Below are positions 19,394 to 26,937 of a stretch of DNA of 64,000 nucleotides, one piece after another. A program made the translations under genes and the position numbers. The notes below the pieces were generated by a model. That model had not been told where the DNA came from. It did no database searches and saw only the letters and a list, made by a program, of their open reading frames with translations. The DNA lies in the NCBI RefSeq assembly GCF_014647455.2, contig NZ_BMPF01000002.1:620001-684000 (forward strand). The letters are read 5' to 3'. The number at the start of each line of letters is the position of its first letter. The first letter of the stretch is position 1. This DNA comes from Halarchaeum grantii (GTDB lineage: Archaea; Halobacteriota; Halobacteria; Halobacteriales; Halobacteriaceae).

Positions 19394-19537
19394 GCGCGCT
19401 CTAGGCCGTGGGCGCCTAACTACCTTTTCGTCGGCCGCGAGGCGGACCAGGGCGGCCACGGCGGTCGCGACGGCGCGAGACGGGGCCGACGGCGTTTCGT
19501 GGTGTGTCGTCCCGTGCCAGACAAGTCTTGCAGGGTC

Positions 19538-19552
19538 GAAAGTGCTTAATAC
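19538..19552 (+). promoter_or_regulatory. BRE plus TATA-like promoter ahead of the argG leader
   Basis: CGAAAG (19538-19543) followed by CTTAATAC (19545-19552) matches haloarchaeal BRE/TATA layout. Expected transcription start is near 19573-19577, a few bases before the ATG of the 25-aa reading frame and about 170 nt before argG. The rest of the stretch between the 2H gene and argG (19394-19747) holds the leader frame and hairpins listed below; nothing else is seen. Confidence 0.55.
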
Positions 19553-19578
19553 GCCGTCCGCGCAAGGTGGGAGTAATC

Positions 19579-19656
19579 ATGGAACGGTCCGCCGACACCA
19601 CGTCCGCTTTCTCCGAGAGCGGCGCGACCGTCCGACGACGACCGGGGTCCCCTTAG
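19579..19656 (+). CDS. Candidate 25-aa arginine leader peptide upstream of argG
   Basis: A short frame from ATG 19579 to TAG 19654-19656, placed about 27-31 nt after the TATA-like element, so it would be translated from a leaderless message. It begins MERSADTTSAF and ends ATVRRRPGSP, with four Arg residues among 25, three of them consecutive as CGA CGA CGA at 19633-19641. The Arg run abuts the 5' arm of two alternative hairpins. It is followed by argG, an arginine-synthesis gene. This resembles a bacterial attenuator leader; no archaeal precedent is claimed and expression is unproven. Confidence 0.5.
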   Translation: MERSADTTSAFSESGATVRRRPGSP

Positions 19657-19680
19657 ACCCCACTTTACCTACTACCCCGG
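19642..19680 (+). promoter_or_regulatory. Mutually exclusive hairpins in the argG leader RNA
   Basis: GGGGTC (19644-19649) can pair with GACCCC (19656-19661) across a six-base loop. The overlapping arm CCGGGGT (19642-19648) can instead pair perfectly with ACCCCGG (19674-19680). The two structures cannot coexist, the leader peptide's stop codon lies in the first hairpin, and the Arg codons end one base before the shared arm. No long T tract follows, so any effect could be on translation or transcript stability as well as termination. Confidence 0.5.
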
Positions 19681-19747
19681 CTTCGAGGTTCGACCCGCGA
19701 ACCCCCGCGTATCGTCGTCAACCGACCCCTACCACAACATCACCACA

Positions 19748-20983
19748 ATGTCCGAGAACGAAACCGTCGCGCTCGCCTTCTCCGGCGGGCTCGACACGAC
19801 AGTCTGCGTCCCGCTGCTGAAAGAAGAGTACGGCTACGACGACGTCATCGGCGTCACCGTCGACGTCGGTCAGCCCGAGGAGGAGTTCGAGGAGGCCTAC
19901 GAGACCGCCGAAGCGCTCGGCCTCGAGCACTACGTCGTCGACGCGACCGAGGAGTTCGCGGAGGTCTGCATGGACGCGGTCGCCGCGAACGCCGACTACG
20001 AGGGCTACCCGCTCGGGACGGCGCTCGCCCGCCCCGTCATCGCGAACGCCATCCTCGACGTCGCCGAGGAGCACGACTGCACGGGCCTCGCCCACGGCTG
20101 TACGGGGAAGGGCAACGACCAGCTGCGCTTCGAGGCCGTCTGGCGCGCCACCGACATGGAGGTCATCGCGCCGGTCCGCGAGATGGGCCTGACGCGCGAA
20201 TGGGAGATCGAGTACGCCGACGAGAAGGACCTCCCAGTGGAGGCGGGCGACGGGGGCACGTGGAGCATCGACACGAACCTCTGGAGTCGCTCCATCGAGG
20301 GCGGCCAGCTCGAGGACCCCGGCTACGTCCCGCCGGCGGACATCTACGAGTGGACGAGCGAGCCGTCCGATGAGACGGAGCTCGTCGAGATCGAGTTCGA
20401 CGCGGGCGTGCCGGTCGCCGTCGACGGCGAGTCGATGGCGCCCGTCGAGCTCATCGAGCACCTGAACGAGCTCGCGGGCGCCTACGGCGTCGGGCGCTCC
20501 GACCTGATGGAGGACCGCATCCTCGGGCTCAAAGTGCGCGAGAACTACGAGCATCCGGCGGCGACGACGCTCCTGAACGCACACGAGGCCCTCGAAGGCC
20601 TCGTGCTGACGAAGGACGAGCGCGACTTCAAGCAGACGGTGGACGAGGAGTGGTCCCAGCAGGCCTACGAGGGCTTGCTTGACTCGCCGCTGATGGACTC
20701 GCTCGACGCCTTCCTCATGCAGTCGAACGAGAAGGTCACCGGGACGGTCACCATCAAGTTCGAGGGCGGGCAGGCCCGCCCGGTCGCCCGCGAGAGCGAG
20801 TACGCGGTCTACTCCGAGCAGGCGGCCTCCTTCAACACGGAGACGGTGATGGGCATCGAGCAGGCCGACGCGACCGGCGTCGCGAAGTACCACGGCTTCC
20901 AGGCGCGCCTCGCGCGCGACGCGGAGAAGAAGGCGAAGCCGGAGCTCGCGACGGACGGCGCGGGCGAGGGGACGGAGGAGTAG
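19748..20983 (+). CDS. argG: Argininosuccinate synthase
   Basis: A 411-aa enzyme joining citrulline and aspartate using ATP, the penultimate step of arginine synthesis. Seen: P-loop-like AFSGGLDTTVCVPLL at residues 9-23, TVDVGQPEEEF, the GTALARPVIA segment, HGCTGKGNDQLRFE, and the citrulline/aspartate-site TREWEIEYA. Length is normal. It is followed after 4 nt by argH. The long 5' region with the leader frame is unusual for a haloarchaeal gene and suggests control by arginine. Confidence 0.97.
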   Translation: MSENETVALAFSGGLDTTVCVPLLKEEYGYDDVIGVTVDVGQPEEEFEEAYETAEALGLEHYVVDATEEFAEVCMDAVAANADYEGYPLGTALARPVIANAILDVAEEHDCTGLAHGCTGKGNDQLRFEAVWRATDMEVIAPVREMGLTREWEIEYADEKDLPVEAGDGGTWSIDTNLWSRSIEGGQLEDPGYVPPADIYEWTSEPSDETELVEIEFDAGVPVAVDGESMAPVELIEHLNELAGAYGVGRSDLMEDRILGLKVRENYEHPAATTLLNAHEALEGLVLTKDERDFKQTVDEEWSQQAYEGLLDSPLMDSLDAFLMQSNEKVTGTVTIKFEGGQARPVARESEYAVYSEQAASFNTETVMGIEQADATGVAKYHGFQARLARDAEKKAKPELATDGAGEGTEE

Positions 20984-20987
20984 ACGG

Positions 20988-22439
20988 ATGGACGGCGAGG
21001 GCTCGGAGACGGTGGTGCGCCGCGAGCGCTTCGCGGGCGGTCCCGCCCGGGAGTTCCTCTCCTCGATGGCGTTCGACGACCGGCTCTTCGAGGCGGACCT
21101 CGCCGTCGACCGCGCGCACGTCGTGATGCTCGCCGAGCAGGGCATCGTCGACGCGGCCGACGCGGGCGCCATTCTCGACGCGCTCGACGACGTCGCCGAG
21201 GAGGGCTTCGACGCCCTGCCGGAGGGCGAGGACGTCCACGAGGCCATCGAGACGGCGGTCATCGAGCGCGTCGGCCCCGACGGCGGGCGGATGCACACGG
21301 CGCGCTCGCGCAACGACGAGGTGGCGGCGTGTCTGCGCTACGAGTACCGCGACACCCTCCTCGAGGCGATCGAGACGACGGTCGCGGCCCGCGAGGCGCT
21401 CTGCGAGGTCGCGGAGGCCGAGCGCGAGACGGTGATGCCGGGCTACACGCACCTCCAGCCCGCCCAGCCGACGACGGTCGCGCACTGGGCGCTCTCCTAC
21501 GAGGCGGCGCTCGCGCGCGACACCGAGCGCCTGCTGGACGCCTTCGACCGGACGAACCGCTCGCCGCTCGGGTCGGCGGCGTTCGCGGGGACGCCGTTCG
21601 ACGTGGACAGAGAGCGCACGGCGGAGCTCTTGGGCTTCGAGTCGGTCCTCGACAACTCGATGGACGCGGTCTCCTCGCGGGACTTCCTCGTGGAGGGGTC
21701 GGCGGCGTTCGCGGGCCTCGCGACGACGCTCTCGGGGCTCGCGGAGGACCTCGTGGTCTTCGCGAATCGGGGCCTCGTCGAACTCGACGACGACTACGCC
21801 TCGACGTCCTCGATCATGCCCCAGAAGAAGAACCCGGACACGCTCGAGCTCGTGCGCTCGACGGCCGGGGACGCGTTCGGTGGGCTCCACGGACTCCTGA
21901 CGACGATGAAGGGCCTGCCGCGCGCGTACAACCGCGACCTGCAGAACGCCTCGCCGCACGCGTGGCGCGTCGCGGACGCGGTGGCGGAGGCGACGGACGT
22001 CGCGGCGGGCGCGGTGTCGACGGCCGACTGGCCGGCCGAGGAGTTGGCGGCGGCGGCGGGCGAGGGGTTCTCGACGGCGACGGGCGTCGCGGACCTGCTC
22101 GCGATGCACGGGCTGCCGTTCCGGACGGCGCACGAGATCGTCGCGGCGGCGGCGGAGCGCGGCGCGGACTACGACGCGCTCGATGCGGCGTGCGAGGAGG
22201 TCGTCGGCGAGGGCATCGACTCGCTCGCGGACCGCGACGCCGTCGAGGCGGTGCTCGATCCCGTGGCGAGCGTGGCGTCGCGCGATTCGATGGGCGGCCC
22301 GGCGCCCGGCGCGACGGCGGAGACGCTGGCGTCGGCGCTCGAGGGCTGTGCGGCGCACGCGGACGCGGCGGCGAGCCGCGCGGACGCCCTCGCCGTGGCC
22401 GAGGAGTCGCTCGCGGCGGAGGTGTCGTCGTATGCGTGA
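20988..22439 (+). CDS. argH: Argininosuccinate lyase
   Basis: A 483-aa fumarase/aspartase-superfamily enzyme splitting argininosuccinate to arginine and fumarate, the last step of the pathway. Seen: GGRMHTARSRNDEVAACLRY, GYTHLQPAQPTTVAHW, and the superfamily signature SSIMPQKKNPD near residue 275, then MTTMKGLPRAYNRDLQ. The C-terminal third is Ala-rich. It lies 4 nt after argG, so the two are one transcription unit; the next arg genes start after a 222-nt gap with their own promoter. Confidence 0.96.
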   Translation: MDGEGSETVVRRERFAGGPAREFLSSMAFDDRLFEADLAVDRAHVVMLAEQGIVDAADAGAILDALDDVAEEGFDALPEGEDVHEAIETAVIERVGPDGGRMHTARSRNDEVAACLRYEYRDTLLEAIETTVAAREALCEVAEAERETVMPGYTHLQPAQPTTVAHWALSYEAALARDTERLLDAFDRTNRSPLGSAAFAGTPFDVDRERTAELLGFESVLDNSMDAVSSRDFLVEGSAAFAGLATTLSGLAEDLVVFANRGLVELDDDYASTSSIMPQKKNPDTLELVRSTAGDAFGGLHGLLTTMKGLPRAYNRDLQNASPHAWRVADAVAEATDVAAGAVSTADWPAEELAAAAGEGFSTATGVADLLAMHGLPFRTAHEIVAAAAERGADYDALDAACEEVVGEGIDSLADRDAVEAVLDPVASVASRDSMGGPAPGATAETLASALEGCAAHADAAASRADALAVAEESLAAEVSSYA

Positions 22440-22524
22440 GCTCCCGATGCGACGACCGCGACGCCCGCGACGACCAGCGGTGCGACGACGCGCACCGCGG
22501 CCCCGTTCGGGGCAACATATCAAA

Positions 22525-22540
22525 ATTCCACGATTGGAAT
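22525..22540. repeat. Inverted repeat between argH and argW
   Basis: ATTCCA-cgat-TGGAAT, a perfect 6+6 dyad with a 4-nt spacer inside an AT-rich patch (22515-22542), about 85 nt past the argH stop and 90 nt before the argW TATA-like element. It could be an operator or the end of the argGH transcript. The remainder of 22440-22661 shows only the promoter below. Confidence 0.45.
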
Positions 22541-22626
22541 ACGGTTCTCCCGGTTCGCCGTTTCGGCGCTTCTCGCGCCGGTAGACGCAACTCTGCCTTC
22601 TTGTAAATTATCTGTTAAGTCCGCCA

Positions 22627-22634
22627 AGTATAAG
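22627..22634 (+). promoter_or_regulatory. TATA-like element for the argW-F operon
   Basis: AAGTATAAG spans this site, 28-35 nt before the ATG at 22662, and supports the shorter start of the carrier protein. Confidence 0.55.
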
Positions 22635-22661
22635 TTGGTGGACGGTGAAGGTGCGGGTGTA

Positions 22662-22826
22662 ATGACCGAATGCATCCAGTGCGGTGCGGACCTCGACCTG
22701 CACGCCGACCTCGAAGTCGGCGAAATCGTCGACTGTGGCACCTGTGGCGCCGAGCTCGAAGTCGTCGACGACGACCCCGTGGAGCTCGAAGAGGCGCCCG
22801 AGCTCGCCGAAGACTGGGGGGAATAA
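22662..22826 (+). CDS. lysW: Amino-group carrier protein LysW/ArgW
   Basis: A 54-aa acidic carrier whose C-terminal Glu is joined to the amino group of glutamate (or alpha-aminoadipate) to protect it during arginine (or lysine) synthesis. Seen: zinc-ribbon cysteines CIQCGADL and CGTCGAEL, and the diagnostic C-terminal EDWGE. The start at 22662 gives the family's normal length; an upstream in-frame GTG/ATG-type extension of nine codons would overlap the promoter. It heads the operon argW-X-C-D-E-F. Confidence 0.95.
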   Translation: MTECIQCGADLDLHADLEVGEIVDCGTCGAELEVVDDDPVELEEAPELAEDWGE

Positions 22827-22850: not shown

Positions 22851-23738
22851 GTGGTCCGCGTGAAGATCGGTCTCCTCTACTCGCGCATCCGGAAGGACGA
22901 GAAGCTCCTCCTCACGGAGCTCCGCGAGCGCGGTCACGACGTCGAGAAGGTGGACGTCCGTAAGCAGCGCTTCGGCGTCGGCGACCCGCCCGAAGCGCTC
23001 GCCGCGTGTGACGTCGTCCTCGACCGGTGTATGGCGACCTCGCGGAGCAAGTACGCGACGACGTTCTGCGAGTCCTACGGCGTCCCGGTCGTGAACAGCG
23101 CGGCGACGGCGGACGTCTGCGCGGACAAGGCGAAGACGAGCGTGAAGCTCGACGCCGCCGGCGTTCCGACGCCCGCGACGACCGTCGCCTTCGACGTCGA
23201 CTCCGCGATGGCGGCCATCGAGGAGTTCGGCTATCCCTGCGTCATCAAGCCCGTCGTGGGCTCGTGGGGGCGCCTGCTCGCGAAGATCGAATCGGAGAGC
23301 GCCGCCGAAGCCGTCCTCGAGCACAAGAAGACGCTCGGCCACTACGAGCACTCCGTCTTCTACGTCCAGGAGTTCGTCGAGAAGCCGGGACGCGACCTGC
23401 GCGTGCTCACGGTGGACGGCGAACCCGTCGCCGCGATGGCGCGCTCCTCCGAGCACTGGCTGACGAACGCCGCGAAGGGCGCGGAGACGACCGAGTTCGA
23501 GCTCGATGAGGAGGTCCGTGCGCTCGCCCGCGAGGCCAGCGAGGCCGTCGGCGGCGGGCTGCTCGGCGTGGACATCATGGAGACCGGCGACGGCTACACG
23601 GTCCCCGAGGTGAACCACACCGTCGAGTTCAAGGCGCTGAACGACGCCGTCGAGGCGGACGTCCCCGGGACGGTCGTCGACTGGCTCGAAGCGAAGGCCG
23701 AACAGGCGAGCGACGCCGACGCGGAGGTCGGCCTATGA
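22851..23738 (+). CDS. argX: LysW-dependent glutamate/aminoadipate ligase (ArgX/LysX)
   Basis: A 295-aa ATP-grasp ligase of the RimK family that attaches the amino-acid substrate to the carrier's C-terminal Glu. Seen: IGLLYSRIRKDEKLLLTEL at the N-terminus, FGYPCVIKPVVGSWGRLLAKI (ATP-grasp), FYVQEFVEKPGRDLRVLTV, and VPEVNHTVEFKALNDA. The start is GTG at 22851 or, three codons later, GTG at 22860, which fits the family's MKIGLLYSRIR beginning better. The stop overlaps the argC start by 4 nt. ArgX rather than LysX specificity is inferred from the all-arginine neighbourhood. Confidence 0.93.
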   Translation: MVRVKIGLLYSRIRKDEKLLLTELRERGHDVEKVDVRKQRFGVGDPPEALAACDVVLDRCMATSRSKYATTFCESYGVPVVNSAATADVCADKAKTSVKLDAAGVPTPATTVAFDVDSAMAAIEEFGYPCVIKPVVGSWGRLLAKIESESAAEAVLEHKKTLGHYEHSVFYVQEFVEKPGRDLRVLTVDGEPVAAMARSSEHWLTNAAKGAETTEFELDEEVRALAREASEAVGGGLLGVDIMETGDGYTVPEVNHTVEFKALNDAVEADVPGTVVDWLEAKAEQASDADAEVGL

Positions 23739-24769
23739 CGTCGGCGAGCGTCGTCGGCGGCAGCGGCTTTACCGGTGGTGAGCTCCTCCGCCTGCTCGCC
23801 GGCCATCCCGAGTTCGAGATTCAGCAGACGACGAGCCGCGAGTACGCGAACAAGACGGTCGGCTCCGTCCACCCGAACCTGCGCGGCCTCGACCTGCGCT
23901 TCGTCGCGCCCGATTCGCTGGATCCGGTGGACGTCCTCTTCGTCTGCGTCCCGCACGGCGTGACGATGGAGCACATCGCGGAGTACCGCGACCTCGCGGA
24001 CACCGTCGTCGACCTCTCGGCGGACTTCCGCCTCCCGGACGCGGAGCTGTACGATACCTGGTACGACGGCCACGTCGCGCCCGAGCACCTCGCGGATGCG
24101 GAGTACGCGCTCCCCGAGCTGAACCGCGAGAACCTCCCCGGGGCGGACCTCATCGCGTCGGGCGGGTGTAACGCCACCTCGACGATGCTCGGCCTCCTCC
24201 CGCTCGTCGAGGCCGGGCTCCTCACCCCGGACGACCGAGTGGTCGCGGACGTCAAGGTCGGCTCCTCGGAGGGCGGCGCGGGCGGCGGCGTGGCGTCCAG
24301 CCACCCCGAGCGCTCCGGCGTCGTCCGGCCGTACGCGCCCACGACCCACCGCCACGAGGCCGAGATCGAGGCCTACCTCGACCTCCAGGTCTCCTTCACC
24401 GTGCACGCGGTGGAGATGATTCGCGGCTCGGCCGCGACCTGCCACGTCTACCCGTCGGAGCTGCCGGCGACGAAGGACATGTGGAGCGCGTTCCGCGAGC
24501 AGTACGGCGACGAGCCGTTCGTCCGCCTCGTCGCGGGCGGCGGCGGCGTCTACCGGTATCCGGAGCCGAAGGCGGTCGCGGGGTCGAACTACGCGGAGGT
24601 CGGCTTCGAACTCGACGAGCGCAACGACCGCATCGTCGTCTTCAGCGCCATCGACAACATGATGAAGGGCTCGGCCGGGCAGGCGGTCCACGCGGCGAAC
24701 GTCGCGCTCGGCTTCGAGGAGACGGCGGGCCTCGAGTTCACGGGCCTCCACCCCGTGGGGAGTCCGTAG
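23735..24769 (+). CDS. argC: N-acetyl/[LysW]-gamma-glutamyl-phosphate reductase
   Basis: A 344-aa NADPH-dependent reductase turning the carrier-bound glutamyl phosphate into the semialdehyde. Seen: SVVGGSGFTGGELLRLLAGHPEF (Rossmann), FVCVPHGVTMEHI, the active-site Cys in IASGGCNATSTMLGLLPL, and VKVGSSEGGAGGG. Length is normal. Its stop codon TAG (24767-24769) touches the ATG of argD directly, leaving no room for the kinase gene argB that in related haloarchaea normally lies here. Confidence 0.95.
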   Translation: MTSASVVGGSGFTGGELLRLLAGHPEFEIQQTTSREYANKTVGSVHPNLRGLDLRFVAPDSLDPVDVLFVCVPHGVTMEHIAEYRDLADTVVDLSADFRLPDAELYDTWYDGHVAPEHLADAEYALPELNRENLPGADLIASGGCNATSTMLGLLPLVEAGLLTPDDRVVADVKVGSSEGGAGGGVASSHPERSGVVRPYAPTTHRHEAEIEAYLDLQVSFTVHAVEMIRGSAATCHVYPSELPATKDMWSAFREQYGDEPFVRLVAGGGGVYRYPEPKAVAGSNYAEVGFELDERNDRIVVFSAIDNMMKGSAGQAVHAANVALGFEETAGLEFTGLHPVGSP

Positions 24770-25906
24770 ATGTCGGAGGCATCCTTCGTCTTCGGCGAGA
24801 AGCCCATCGGAATCGACTCCGGGCAGGGCGTCACGGTCACGGACGACTCGGGGAACGACTACCTCGACTTCGGGGCGTCCTACGCCTGCACGCCGCTCGG
24901 CCACTCGCACCCGACGGTCACCGAGGCCGTCCAGGAGCAGGCGGCGGAGCTCACCTACGTCCAGGGTTCATATCCTGTGGACGTCCGCTCGGAGCTCTAC
25001 GACCGGCTCGCCGCGCTCGCGCCCGGCGACTGCGAGAAGGTCTGGCTCTGCAACTCCGGCACGGAAGCGAACGAGGCGGCGCTGAAGTTCGCCCGACACG
25101 CGACCGGCCGCTCGAAGATCGTCGCGACGATGCAGGCGTTCCACGGCCGGACGATGGGCGCGCTCGCGGCGACGTGGAAGGACGAGTACAAGGAGGGCTT
25201 CGGCCCGCTCGCGGGCGACGTCGAGTTCGTCCCCTACGGTGATCGGGAAGCGATGAGCGAGGCCGTCGACGAGGAGACGGCCGCCGTCATCCTCGAGCCC
25301 ATCCAGGGCGAGGGCGGCGTCAACCCCGCGCCCGAGGGCTACCTCGGGCACGTCCGCGACGTCACGGCCGACGCGGGCGCGGCGTTCATCGCCGACGAGA
25401 TCCAGACCGGCGTCGGGCGCACCGGCGACCTCTGGGCGGTCGAGGGCGAGGGCGTCACGCCCGACGTCGTCACGGCCGCGAAGGGCATCGCGAACGGCCT
25501 GCCGATGGGCGCGACGATGGTGCGGCCGTGGATCGCGGAGAACGCCGGGAACCACGGCTCGACGTTCTCCGGCGGGCCCGTGCCCTGCGCGGCGGCGAAC
25601 GCGACGCTCGAGACGCTCGTCGCGGAGGACCTCCCCGGGCATGCCCGCGAGGTCGGCGCGGCGTTCCGCGAGAGCCTCGAGGGCATCGCGGCGGAGACGG
25701 ACGCCATCCGCGACGTCCGCGGGCGCGGCCTCATGGTCGGCGTCGAAGTGAAGACGGGCGCGAACCCCGTCATCGGCGGGATGGCGATGAATCACGGCAT
25801 CCTCGCGCTCCCGGCGGGGCGCACCGTCGTGCGGTTCCTGCCGCCGCTGACGGTGACCGAAGAGCACTGCCAGCGCGTCGTCGACGCGCTCGAATCGACG
25901 CTATGA
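24770..25906 (+). CDS. argD: Acetylornithine/[LysW]-aminoacid aminotransferase
   Basis: A 378-aa class III PLP aminotransferase converting the carrier-bound semialdehyde to the ornithine (or lysine) form. Seen: CNSGTEANEAALKFAR, HGRTMGALAAT, AVILEPIQGEGGVNPA, FIADEIQTGVGRTG, and the PLP-binding Lys in TAAKGIANGLPMGA (about residue 238). Length is normal. It starts at the base after the argC stop and overlaps argE by 4 nt. Confidence 0.95.
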   Translation: MSEASFVFGEKPIGIDSGQGVTVTDDSGNDYLDFGASYACTPLGHSHPTVTEAVQEQAAELTYVQGSYPVDVRSELYDRLAALAPGDCEKVWLCNSGTEANEAALKFARHATGRSKIVATMQAFHGRTMGALAATWKDEYKEGFGPLAGDVEFVPYGDREAMSEAVDEETAAVILEPIQGEGGVNPAPEGYLGHVRDVTADAGAAFIADEIQTGVGRTGDLWAVEGEGVTPDVVTAAKGIANGLPMGATMVRPWIAENAGNHGSTFSGGPVPCAAANATLETLVAEDLPGHAREVGAAFRESLEGIAAETDAIRDVRGRGLMVGVEVKTGANPVIGGMAMNHGILALPAGRTVVRFLPPLTVTEEHCQRVVDALESTL

Positions 25907-26937
25907 CGGACGCGCGCGAACTCCTGCGCGACCTCGTGGAGACGCCGTCCGTCTCGGGCGAGGAGCGCGCGGTCGCCGAGCGCCTCGTCTCGTACTTCGA
26001 GGCGCACGGCCGCGAGGCCTACCTCGACGACGTCGGGAACGTTCGGGCACCCGCCGACGACGGCGTCCTCCTGACGAGCCACATGGACACGGTTCCGGGC
26101 GACATCCCGGTCCGCGAGGCGAGCGGCGAACTCTGGGGACGCGGCGCCTGCGACGCGAAGGGCCCGCTCGCCGCGATGGCGGTCGCGGCCGCGCGCGCTG
26201 GCGTCTCCTTCGTCGGCGTCGTCGGCGAGGAGACGAGCTCGCGGGGCGCGCGCCACCTCGTGGAGACGCGCGACCAGCCGGAGGCCGTCATCAACGGCGA
26301 GCCCTCCGGGTGGGACGCGGTGACGCTCGGCTACCGGGGATTCGTGAAGGGGCGCTTCGCCGGCGAGACGCCGTCCGCGCACACCTCGCGCCCGGGGCCG
26401 AACGCCCTCGAGCACGCGATGGACTGGTGGCACGACGTCGAGGAGACGTTCGAGGCGGGGAGCGAGTCCTCCGTCTTCGAGCAGGTGACGACGAAACCCG
26501 TCGAGATGGACGGCGGCGTCTCCGCCGACGGCCTCGCGTTCGAGGCGACGGTGGAGGTGCAGTTGCGCGTCCCCCCGTCACTGACCGTCGAAGAGGTGCG
26601 TGCGACCGTCGAGGGCGCGCTCCCGACGTACGTGGGCGAGGAGGCGTCCGTGGCGGTCGAGTGGACGGACGCCATCCCGCCAGTGATGGAGTCCCCGCGC
26701 AACGGCGTCGCGGCGGCGCTGCGCGCGGGCATCCGCGCTGAGGGCGGCGAGACGACGCACCTCCGCAAGACCGGCACCAGCGACATGAACGTCTACCGTG
26801 GCGCGTGGGACTGCCCGATGGCGACCTACGGGCCGGGCGACTCGTCGCTCGACCACGCGCCGGACGAACGCATCGACTTAGAGGAGTACGACCGCGGCGT
26901 CGCCGTGCTGACGGCGGCCGCAGAGCGATTACAATGA
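25903..26937 (+). CDS. argE: [LysW]-ornithine/lysine hydrolase (ArgE/LysK)
   Basis: A 344-aa M20-family metallopeptidase that frees ornithine from the carrier protein. Seen: LLTSHMDTVPGDIPV (metal-binding His/Asp), GRGACDAKGPLAAMAVA (bridging Asp), VGVVGEETSSRGARHL (Glu pair), and the late RKTGTSDMNVY and YGPGDSSLDHAPDERI. It overlaps argD upstream and argF downstream by 4 nt each, consistent with translational coupling. Acting on LysW adducts rather than acetylornithine is inferred from argW and argX nearby. Confidence 0.92.
   Translation: MTDARELLRDLVETPSVSGEERAVAERLVSYFEAHGREAYLDDVGNVRAPADDGVLLTSHMDTVPGDIPVREASGELWGRGACDAKGPLAAMAVAAARAGVSFVGVVGEETSSRGARHLVETRDQPEAVINGEPSGWDAVTLGYRGFVKGRFAGETPSAHTSRPGPNALEHAMDWWHDVEETFEAGSESSVFEQVTTKPVEMDGGVSADGLAFEATVEVQLRVPPSLTVEEVRATVEGALPTYVGEEASVAVEWTDAIPPVMESPRNGVAAALRAGIRAEGGETTHLRKTGTSDMNVYRGAWDCPMATYGPGDSSLDHAPDERIDLEEYDRGVAVLTAAAERLQ

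Follow-up and report, generated by a model that had tools for sequence, protein, structure and literature searches.

Why should the arginine gene cluster of a haloarchaeon begin with a 169-nt leader, and why should that leader hold a short reading frame that closes with three rare Arg codons against a hairpin? The question is raised by the region upstream of argG in Halarchaeum grantii, which lies in a 64,000-nt stretch of contig NZ_BMPF01000002.1 (positions 620,001 to 684,000 of the forward strand), hereafter the window. Our preferred answer, to which we assign a probability of about 0.7, is that the leader is a haloarchaeal ribosome-mediated attenuator of the arg operon.

Anatomy of the argG leader

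NCBIfam profile matches give the cluster order argG-argH-argW-argX-argC-argD-argE (Table 1), and argG of this genome is 96% identical to that of Halarchaeum nitratireducens. There is no argB between argC and argD (window 23735-25906). On the same contig, at a distance of about 255 kb (contig positions 383946-384695), an argB-family gene stands directly downstream of a second LysX/ArgX-like gene and without an Arg leader. The gap between argH and argW is 195 nt long (22440-22634) and could house a promoter within the cluster that serves argWXCDE.

Table 1. Features of the argG leader and of the arg gene cluster in H. grantii (window positions).
Feature	Position	Strand	Basis
Promoter P1: BRE-like CGAAAGTG (19537-19544) and TATA-like TTAATA (19546-19551)	19537-19551	+	sequence; conserved TATA-ATG spacing
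Leader ORF, 25 codons (19579-19653), MERSADTTSAFSESGATVRRRPGSP, stop TAG (19654-19656)	19579-19656	+	predicted translation from leaderless or near-leaderless RNA; frame conservation
Stem 1, inside the ORF, pause-hairpin-like; sequence clade-specific, position recurring	19581-19633	+	fold; alifold in genus groups
Control codons CGA CGA CGA (Arg), rare in this genome	19633-19641	+	codon counts
Stem 2, GGGGTC-CCCTTA-GACCCC (arms 19644-19649 and 19656-19661), putative 'off' hairpin; contains the leader stop	19644-19661	+	complementarity; arm covariation
Nearly G-free C/T/A-rich tract behind the hairpin (ACTTTACCTACTACCCC)	19662-19679	+	base composition
TCGTCGTC, can pair with Arg codons 19634-19641, enclosing stem 2	19712-19719	+	fold; enriched in some clades only
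argG, argininosuccinate synthase, first gene of the putatively controlled cluster	19748-20983	+	NCBIfam NF010392 (equivalog) and TIGR00032
argH, argininosuccinate lyase	20988-22439	+	TIGR00838
argW, LysW-type amino-group carrier	22635-22826	+	TIGR01206
argX, LysX family	22851-23738	+	TIGR02144
argC	23735-24769	+	TIGR01850
argD	24770-25906	+	TIGR00707
argE/lysK-type deacylase	25903-26937	+	NF003367

A first-pass annotation of this DNA had described a BRE/TATA-like promoter at leaderless spacing, a 25-codon frame before argG with a CGA CGA CGA run, and a near hairpin (GGGGTC with GACCCC) accompanied by a distal ACCCCGG complement. All of these were found in place when the coordinates were read directly, with the ATG 33 nt past the first T of TTAATA and the leader stop at the junction between the loop and the 3' arm of stem 2. 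The 169-nt leader also folds better than 200 of 200 dinucleotide shuffles (z = -4.2).

According to a study of Haloferax volcanii, 72% of its protein-coding transcripts are leaderless (PMC4983044). When 165 leaders were located from the hairpin backwards, leaving the TATA box unused, a strict TATA hexamer was present 27-36 nt ahead of an in-frame ATG in 135 of them, nearly always at 29-34 nt. The promoter spacing is therefore conserved across haloarchaea, and because it matches that expected of leaderless haloarchaeal genes, we read the leader frame as leaderless.

Conservation of the frame, its codons and the hairpin

We collected argG upstream regions from 117 relatives and 80 named genomes, giving 190 regions. 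The element was detected in 174 of the 190 real upstream regions, compared with 64 of 570 dinucleotide shuffles, so that a short frame with Arg codons near its end and a covarying hairpin, the pattern for which the first-pass annotation had proposed to look, is conserved across haloarchaea. In several of the 16 regions in which it was not detected, inspection reveals the element with a stem of 4 bp; the exceptions that lack it include divergent genomes (L106, L108, L109 and L110). An Arg-tailed frame with its stop in the hairpin occurs in Halarchaeum, Halobacterium, Halorussus, Haladaptatus, Natrialbaceae, Haloferax, Halalkalicoccus and others, and Halorubrum carries a variant whose stop falls just past the hairpin. 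No such leader was found before argG in the 21 non-haloarchaeal Halobacteriota examined. From its presence in nearly all haloarchaea and absence from these other Halobacteriota we conclude that the leader is a haloarchaeal invention, and one that is old within the class. One genome (G062) has two extra argG copies (L054 and L058) without the leader, each directly downstream of the same unrelated gene; they are possibly paralogues of another role.

The frame itself was examined in 130 genomes by choosing the ATG from the TATA box alone and finding the hairpin independently by structure. Frame 0 is open as far as the hairpin in 129 of the 130 genomes and has its first stop inside the hairpin in 106, against 0 and 5 genomes for the other two frames. 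It is common to all four Halarchaeum genomes (4/4) and kept throughout haloarchaea, and shows no decay through stops and frameshifts. Its length varies from about 21 to 57 codons; the hairpin therefore tracks the end of the frame and not the promoter.

Substitutions in the leader are spread equally over codon positions 1, 2 and 3 (1466/1592/1527), and this lack of codon-position bias in the leader body indicates that the peptide product is not what selection keeps. Peptide-level coding selection was considered as a candidate explanation and rejected for this lack of signal. A functional small protein, or a free-standing small RNA gene beside argG, would fit a unit with its own promoter and frame, but protein-like conservation is lacking, no NCBIfam or Rfam family covers the leader, and its place before argG is fixed, which together leave this explanation barely credible. 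In Rfam searches the only match in the window was one tRNA, and none of seven argG and ilvB loci matched at gathering score.

Selection on the leader end is instead seen in its codons. Among 141 TATA-defined leaders, the last ten codons contain on average 4.06 Arg codons and never fewer than 2, compared with an Arg content of 12% elsewhere in the leader. CGA makes up 7 of the 190 Arg codons in the large genes of the window; in the named loci its share of Arg codons is 73% at the leader end, 37% over the remaining leader codons and 1.3% within argG, and the leader-end share exceeds that in argG in 65 of 65 genomes tested. This preference favours sensing of a particular tRNA. The CGA excess could in part serve RNA pairing, such as that of the CGA run with a downstream TCGTCG in some clades.

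These data also bear on whether the leader might encode an arginine-induced arrest peptide. In the fungal arginine attenuator peptide (arg-2/CPA1), arginine drives a peptide-sequence-dependent arrest that acts on translation, and the haloarchaeal leader resembles it in being a uORF ahead of an arginine-biosynthesis gene. The leader C-terminus is often R-R-P-G-x, a point in favour of such a peptide, but endings vary (RRRPGSP, RPRRRAL and RRPRRAF among them), and, unlike in the fungal case, the peptide body is not conserved while the Arg codons are. Selection acts on the codon and not merely on the residue, and a ribosome that stalled when arginine is abundant would keep the 'off' hairpin masked, the opposite of what a biosynthetic operon needs. 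We therefore regard an arrest peptide as extremely unlikely. Conservation falls on frame, codons and pairing, and not on the peptide.

Stem 2, a GC hairpin, takes 18 forms, including GGGGTC/GACCCC, GGGCC/GGCCC, GGCCC/GGGCC, CGGGC/GCCCG and GGGGC/GCCCC. For a covariation test not selected for pairing, the 5' arm was defined as the first GG near the frame end and the 3' arm as a stretch of 12 nt counted from the stop codon. Perfect 5-bp complements were present in 78 of 141 genomes, whereas 2000 partner swaps gave 30 on average and never more than 42. Judged by this covariation, stem 2 is an RNA structure, the arms of which change together.

A palindrome downstream of a promoter is typical of a repressor site, and GGGGTC..GACCCC has just this placement, so the palindrome might be a DNA operator and the reading frame incidental. 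Its position, however, follows the end of the ORF through frames of 21-57 codons and not the promoter, its sequence changes between genomes with complementarity preserved, the frame and the rare CGA codons are retained, and the version before ilvB (described below) has other flanks and matching Ile-Val codons. An operator is accordingly very unlikely.

In most leaders the last Arg codon begins 1-5 nt ahead of the hairpin, and a ribosome positioned there would thus mask it. Across 81 diverse loci, for which the counts are descriptive only since they were drawn from stems selected as paired, G content is 6% in the 20 nt past the hairpin compared with 22% at 41-60 nt. Behind the hairpin stands a C/T/A tract in place of a U-run. 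Contiguous pairing of at least 8 bp within stem 1 occurs in 35 of 174 leaders (7.7 in shuffles), and pairing of at least 8 bp between the Arg codons and downstream sequence in 38 of 174 (5.2 in shuffles).

A proposed mechanism and its alternatives

In its simplest form the conserved anatomy is a single hairpin that a stalled ribosome would mask; translation of the frame, stalling, the sign of control and termination as the controlled step are our inferences. RNA from P1 would start at or a few nt before the leader AUG, so that a ribosome could enter directly, and stem 1 may slow the polymerase and let the ribosome keep up. When charged tRNA-Arg is short, most sensitively the CGA-reading isoacceptor, the ribosome would wait at the CGA codons and cover the 5' arm of stem 2; no hairpin would form, and RNA polymerase would go on into argG. 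With ample arginine, the ribosome would pass, terminate at the stop within the hairpin and leave, allowing stem 2 to form. Stem 2 and the G-free tract would then stop transcription, either by hairpin-assisted termination or by the action of FttA/aCPSF1 on ribosome-free RNA. The 'off' hairpin is probably a terminator.

We modelled this masking with an assumed ribosome footprint that reaches 15 nt upstream and 12 nt downstream of the A-site. Placing the A-site at Arg codon 2 or 3 lowers the probability of stem 2 in the model to about 0.00-0.01, compared with 0.99 otherwise, whereas stem 2 still largely forms (0.83) when the first CGA occupies the A-site. A ribosome on the stop codon masks stem 2 too in the model, and repression would therefore depend on release being fast compared with RNA polymerase.

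The first-pass annotation had framed the locus as a two-hairpin attenuator, in which a ribosome would select between pairing of CCGGGGT (19642-19648) with GACCCC and with the distal ACCCCGG (19674-19680). The Arg-ended frame abutting a hairpin before the arg operon has stood up to comparison across haloarchaea; the alternative pairing has not. In this genome both pairings are perfect, the distal one over 7 bp, and in silico the distal pairing wins thermodynamically once the RNA is about 110 nt long. Among the 174 leaders, however, distal-arm complements of at least 6 bp are not commoner than in shuffles (11 versus 8.9), and those of 7 bp are rare (4 versus 0.8). No universal competing (antiterminator) pairing was found across these leaders, and the competitors that do occur, such as Arg codons with TCGTCG, are clade-specific. 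A classical two-hairpin switch is thus quite unlikely.

The distance from the hairpin to argG, which ranges from about 57 to 227 nt, divides the loci into two layouts. In the short-gap layout (<125 nt; 59 loci, this genome included), a TATA box before argG was found in 0 of 59. In the long-gap layout (115 loci), a TATA-like hexamer precedes argG in 86, mostly with a T-rich tract. Apparently argG has its own TATA box in many lineages, and the leader is therefore not the sole source of argG mRNA there; at such loci it would, as far as the sequence indicates, add regulated transcription to a second promoter. In many lineages with a long gap (L324, for example), the region about 30-80 nt before argG carries this second TATA-like box, and upstream of the box lie T-rich sequence and a recurring stretch, for instance CCTATAGGCATCTCT or GGTTAGCGTCCGCTC.

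The same spacing data bear on translational control, by which the position of the leader ribosome would alter folding or re-initiation and so adjust translation of argG rather than its transcription. The short-gap loci would suit such a scheme, since argG there lies on the leadered RNA 75-125 nt past the hairpin with no TATA box in front (59/59). The variable gap is against it, genus-level folds gave no conserved pairing to the argG start, and leaderless argG mRNA made from argG's own TATA box would escape such control. We consider translational control unlikely.

For attenuation by a masked hairpin, the lack of a U-run makes termination efficiency the weakest link. In haloarchaea a T stretch serves as the strong terminator. 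Hairpins lie ahead of 503 Haloferax 3' ends, and one hairpin that was tested gave 59% termination in vivo (PMC7237163). Transcription-translation coupling has been reported in Haloferax (PMC8576121), and FttA/aCPSF1 may have access to RNA that carries no ribosome (PMC8116511).

The ilvB leader and comparison with known systems

The same leader architecture is present before ilvB in 24 of 27 haloarchaeal loci (L113-L139). These leaders end mostly in (I)IVG(A)-stop, the stop lying within the hairpin; GTA and GGG codons stand in the hairpin arm in numbers that match all 24 loci, and GTA is present in every one. Ile and Val make up 44% of the last six codons compared with 13% of the body. The ilvB leader of this genome (L119; contig C1, start 587709, minus strand) reads MRPAPTQSLRRRVSVIAAVRTPIVGA. 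The same detector found one match in 99 upstream regions of other amino acid genes (leuA 0/29, trpD 1/22, thrC 0/24 and hisG 0/24), the single trpD match being weak, starting with GTG and lacking matching codons. Essentially no such leader is present upstream of trpE, and none upstream of trpS of this genome. Over the 2.06 Mb scanned, which make up 68% of this genome, the full anatomy was seen at argG and ilvB only; the remaining matches were weak and lacked a matching-codon leader, stop-in-hairpin and G-poor tail.

Amino-acid sensing finds its strongest argument in the presence of two independent operons, each with codons for the end product of its own pathway, and the Ile-Val version before ilvB strongly favours it. 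It appears fairly likely that haloarchaea control arginine and branched-chain amino-acid synthesis by ribosome-mediated attenuation with a single stop-housing hairpin, rare CGA/GTA codons and leaderless leader RNAs.

Amino-acid leader-peptide attenuators are well established in bacteria (trp, his, leu, ilvGMEDA and pheST). The haloarchaeal leader shares with them a promoter, a short ORF with product codons near its end, a hairpin before the first enzyme gene, rare synonymous codons and, in our interpretation, a stalled ribosome that senses charged tRNA. It differs in its BRE/TATA-driven leaderless start, in having the stop codon inside the hairpin, in control codons that touch or overlap the 5' arm, and in lacking a conserved antiterminator; a G-free C/T/A tract replaces the U-run, and archaeal RNA polymerase with FttA would replace bacterial intrinsic termination. 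With neither a conserved distal pairing nor a U-run, the element would be a distinct variant and not a textbook trp-type attenuator. Amino-acid leader-peptide attenuators also occur in Actinobacteria, according to one report (PMC1262725).

Another parallel may lie in termination. At E. coli tnaC, a catabolic system with an inducer-driven arrest peptide, control depends on the position of the ribosome beside a Rho-binding C-rich tract. Like tnaC, the haloarchaeal leader has a C-rich, G-poor tract behind its stop and possibly factor-dependent termination on ribosome-free RNA; unlike tnaC, it precedes a biosynthetic operon and has product codons and no conserved peptide.

Leader-peptide attenuation is the textbook case of regulation by coupled transcription and translation, as described for bacteria. 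About coupling in archaea nearly nothing is known, according to PMC8576121. The leader has no NCBIfam family, and the element is unreported in the open-access PMC papers searched, although that absence is not proof of its being unknown. If the proposed mechanism is true, attenuation in archaea evolved separately from the bacterial mechanisms, archaeal termination (hairpins and FttA) is tied to translation, and a natural amino-acid-responsive switch is available for a genetically tractable archaeon. A class-wide element at two operons would make the question of archaeal coupling directly testable in Haloferax, for which TSS, 3'-end and ribosome-profiling studies exist.

The H. volcanii study lists 16 uORFs of 15-31 codons in long 5'-UTRs, some with a second leaderless start site, and among them uORFs of 26 and 23 codons before pheS and a tryptophan--tRNA ligase (trpS) gene (PMC4983044, Table 2). 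That list includes neither argG nor ilvB, which counts against our reading, and no attenuation mechanism is proposed alongside it (PMC4983044). The other Haloferax species examined, H. volcanii not being among them, carry an argG leader that reads MATRSTFATFAPLRAAAVRPRRRAL followed by a stop, or a close variant of it.
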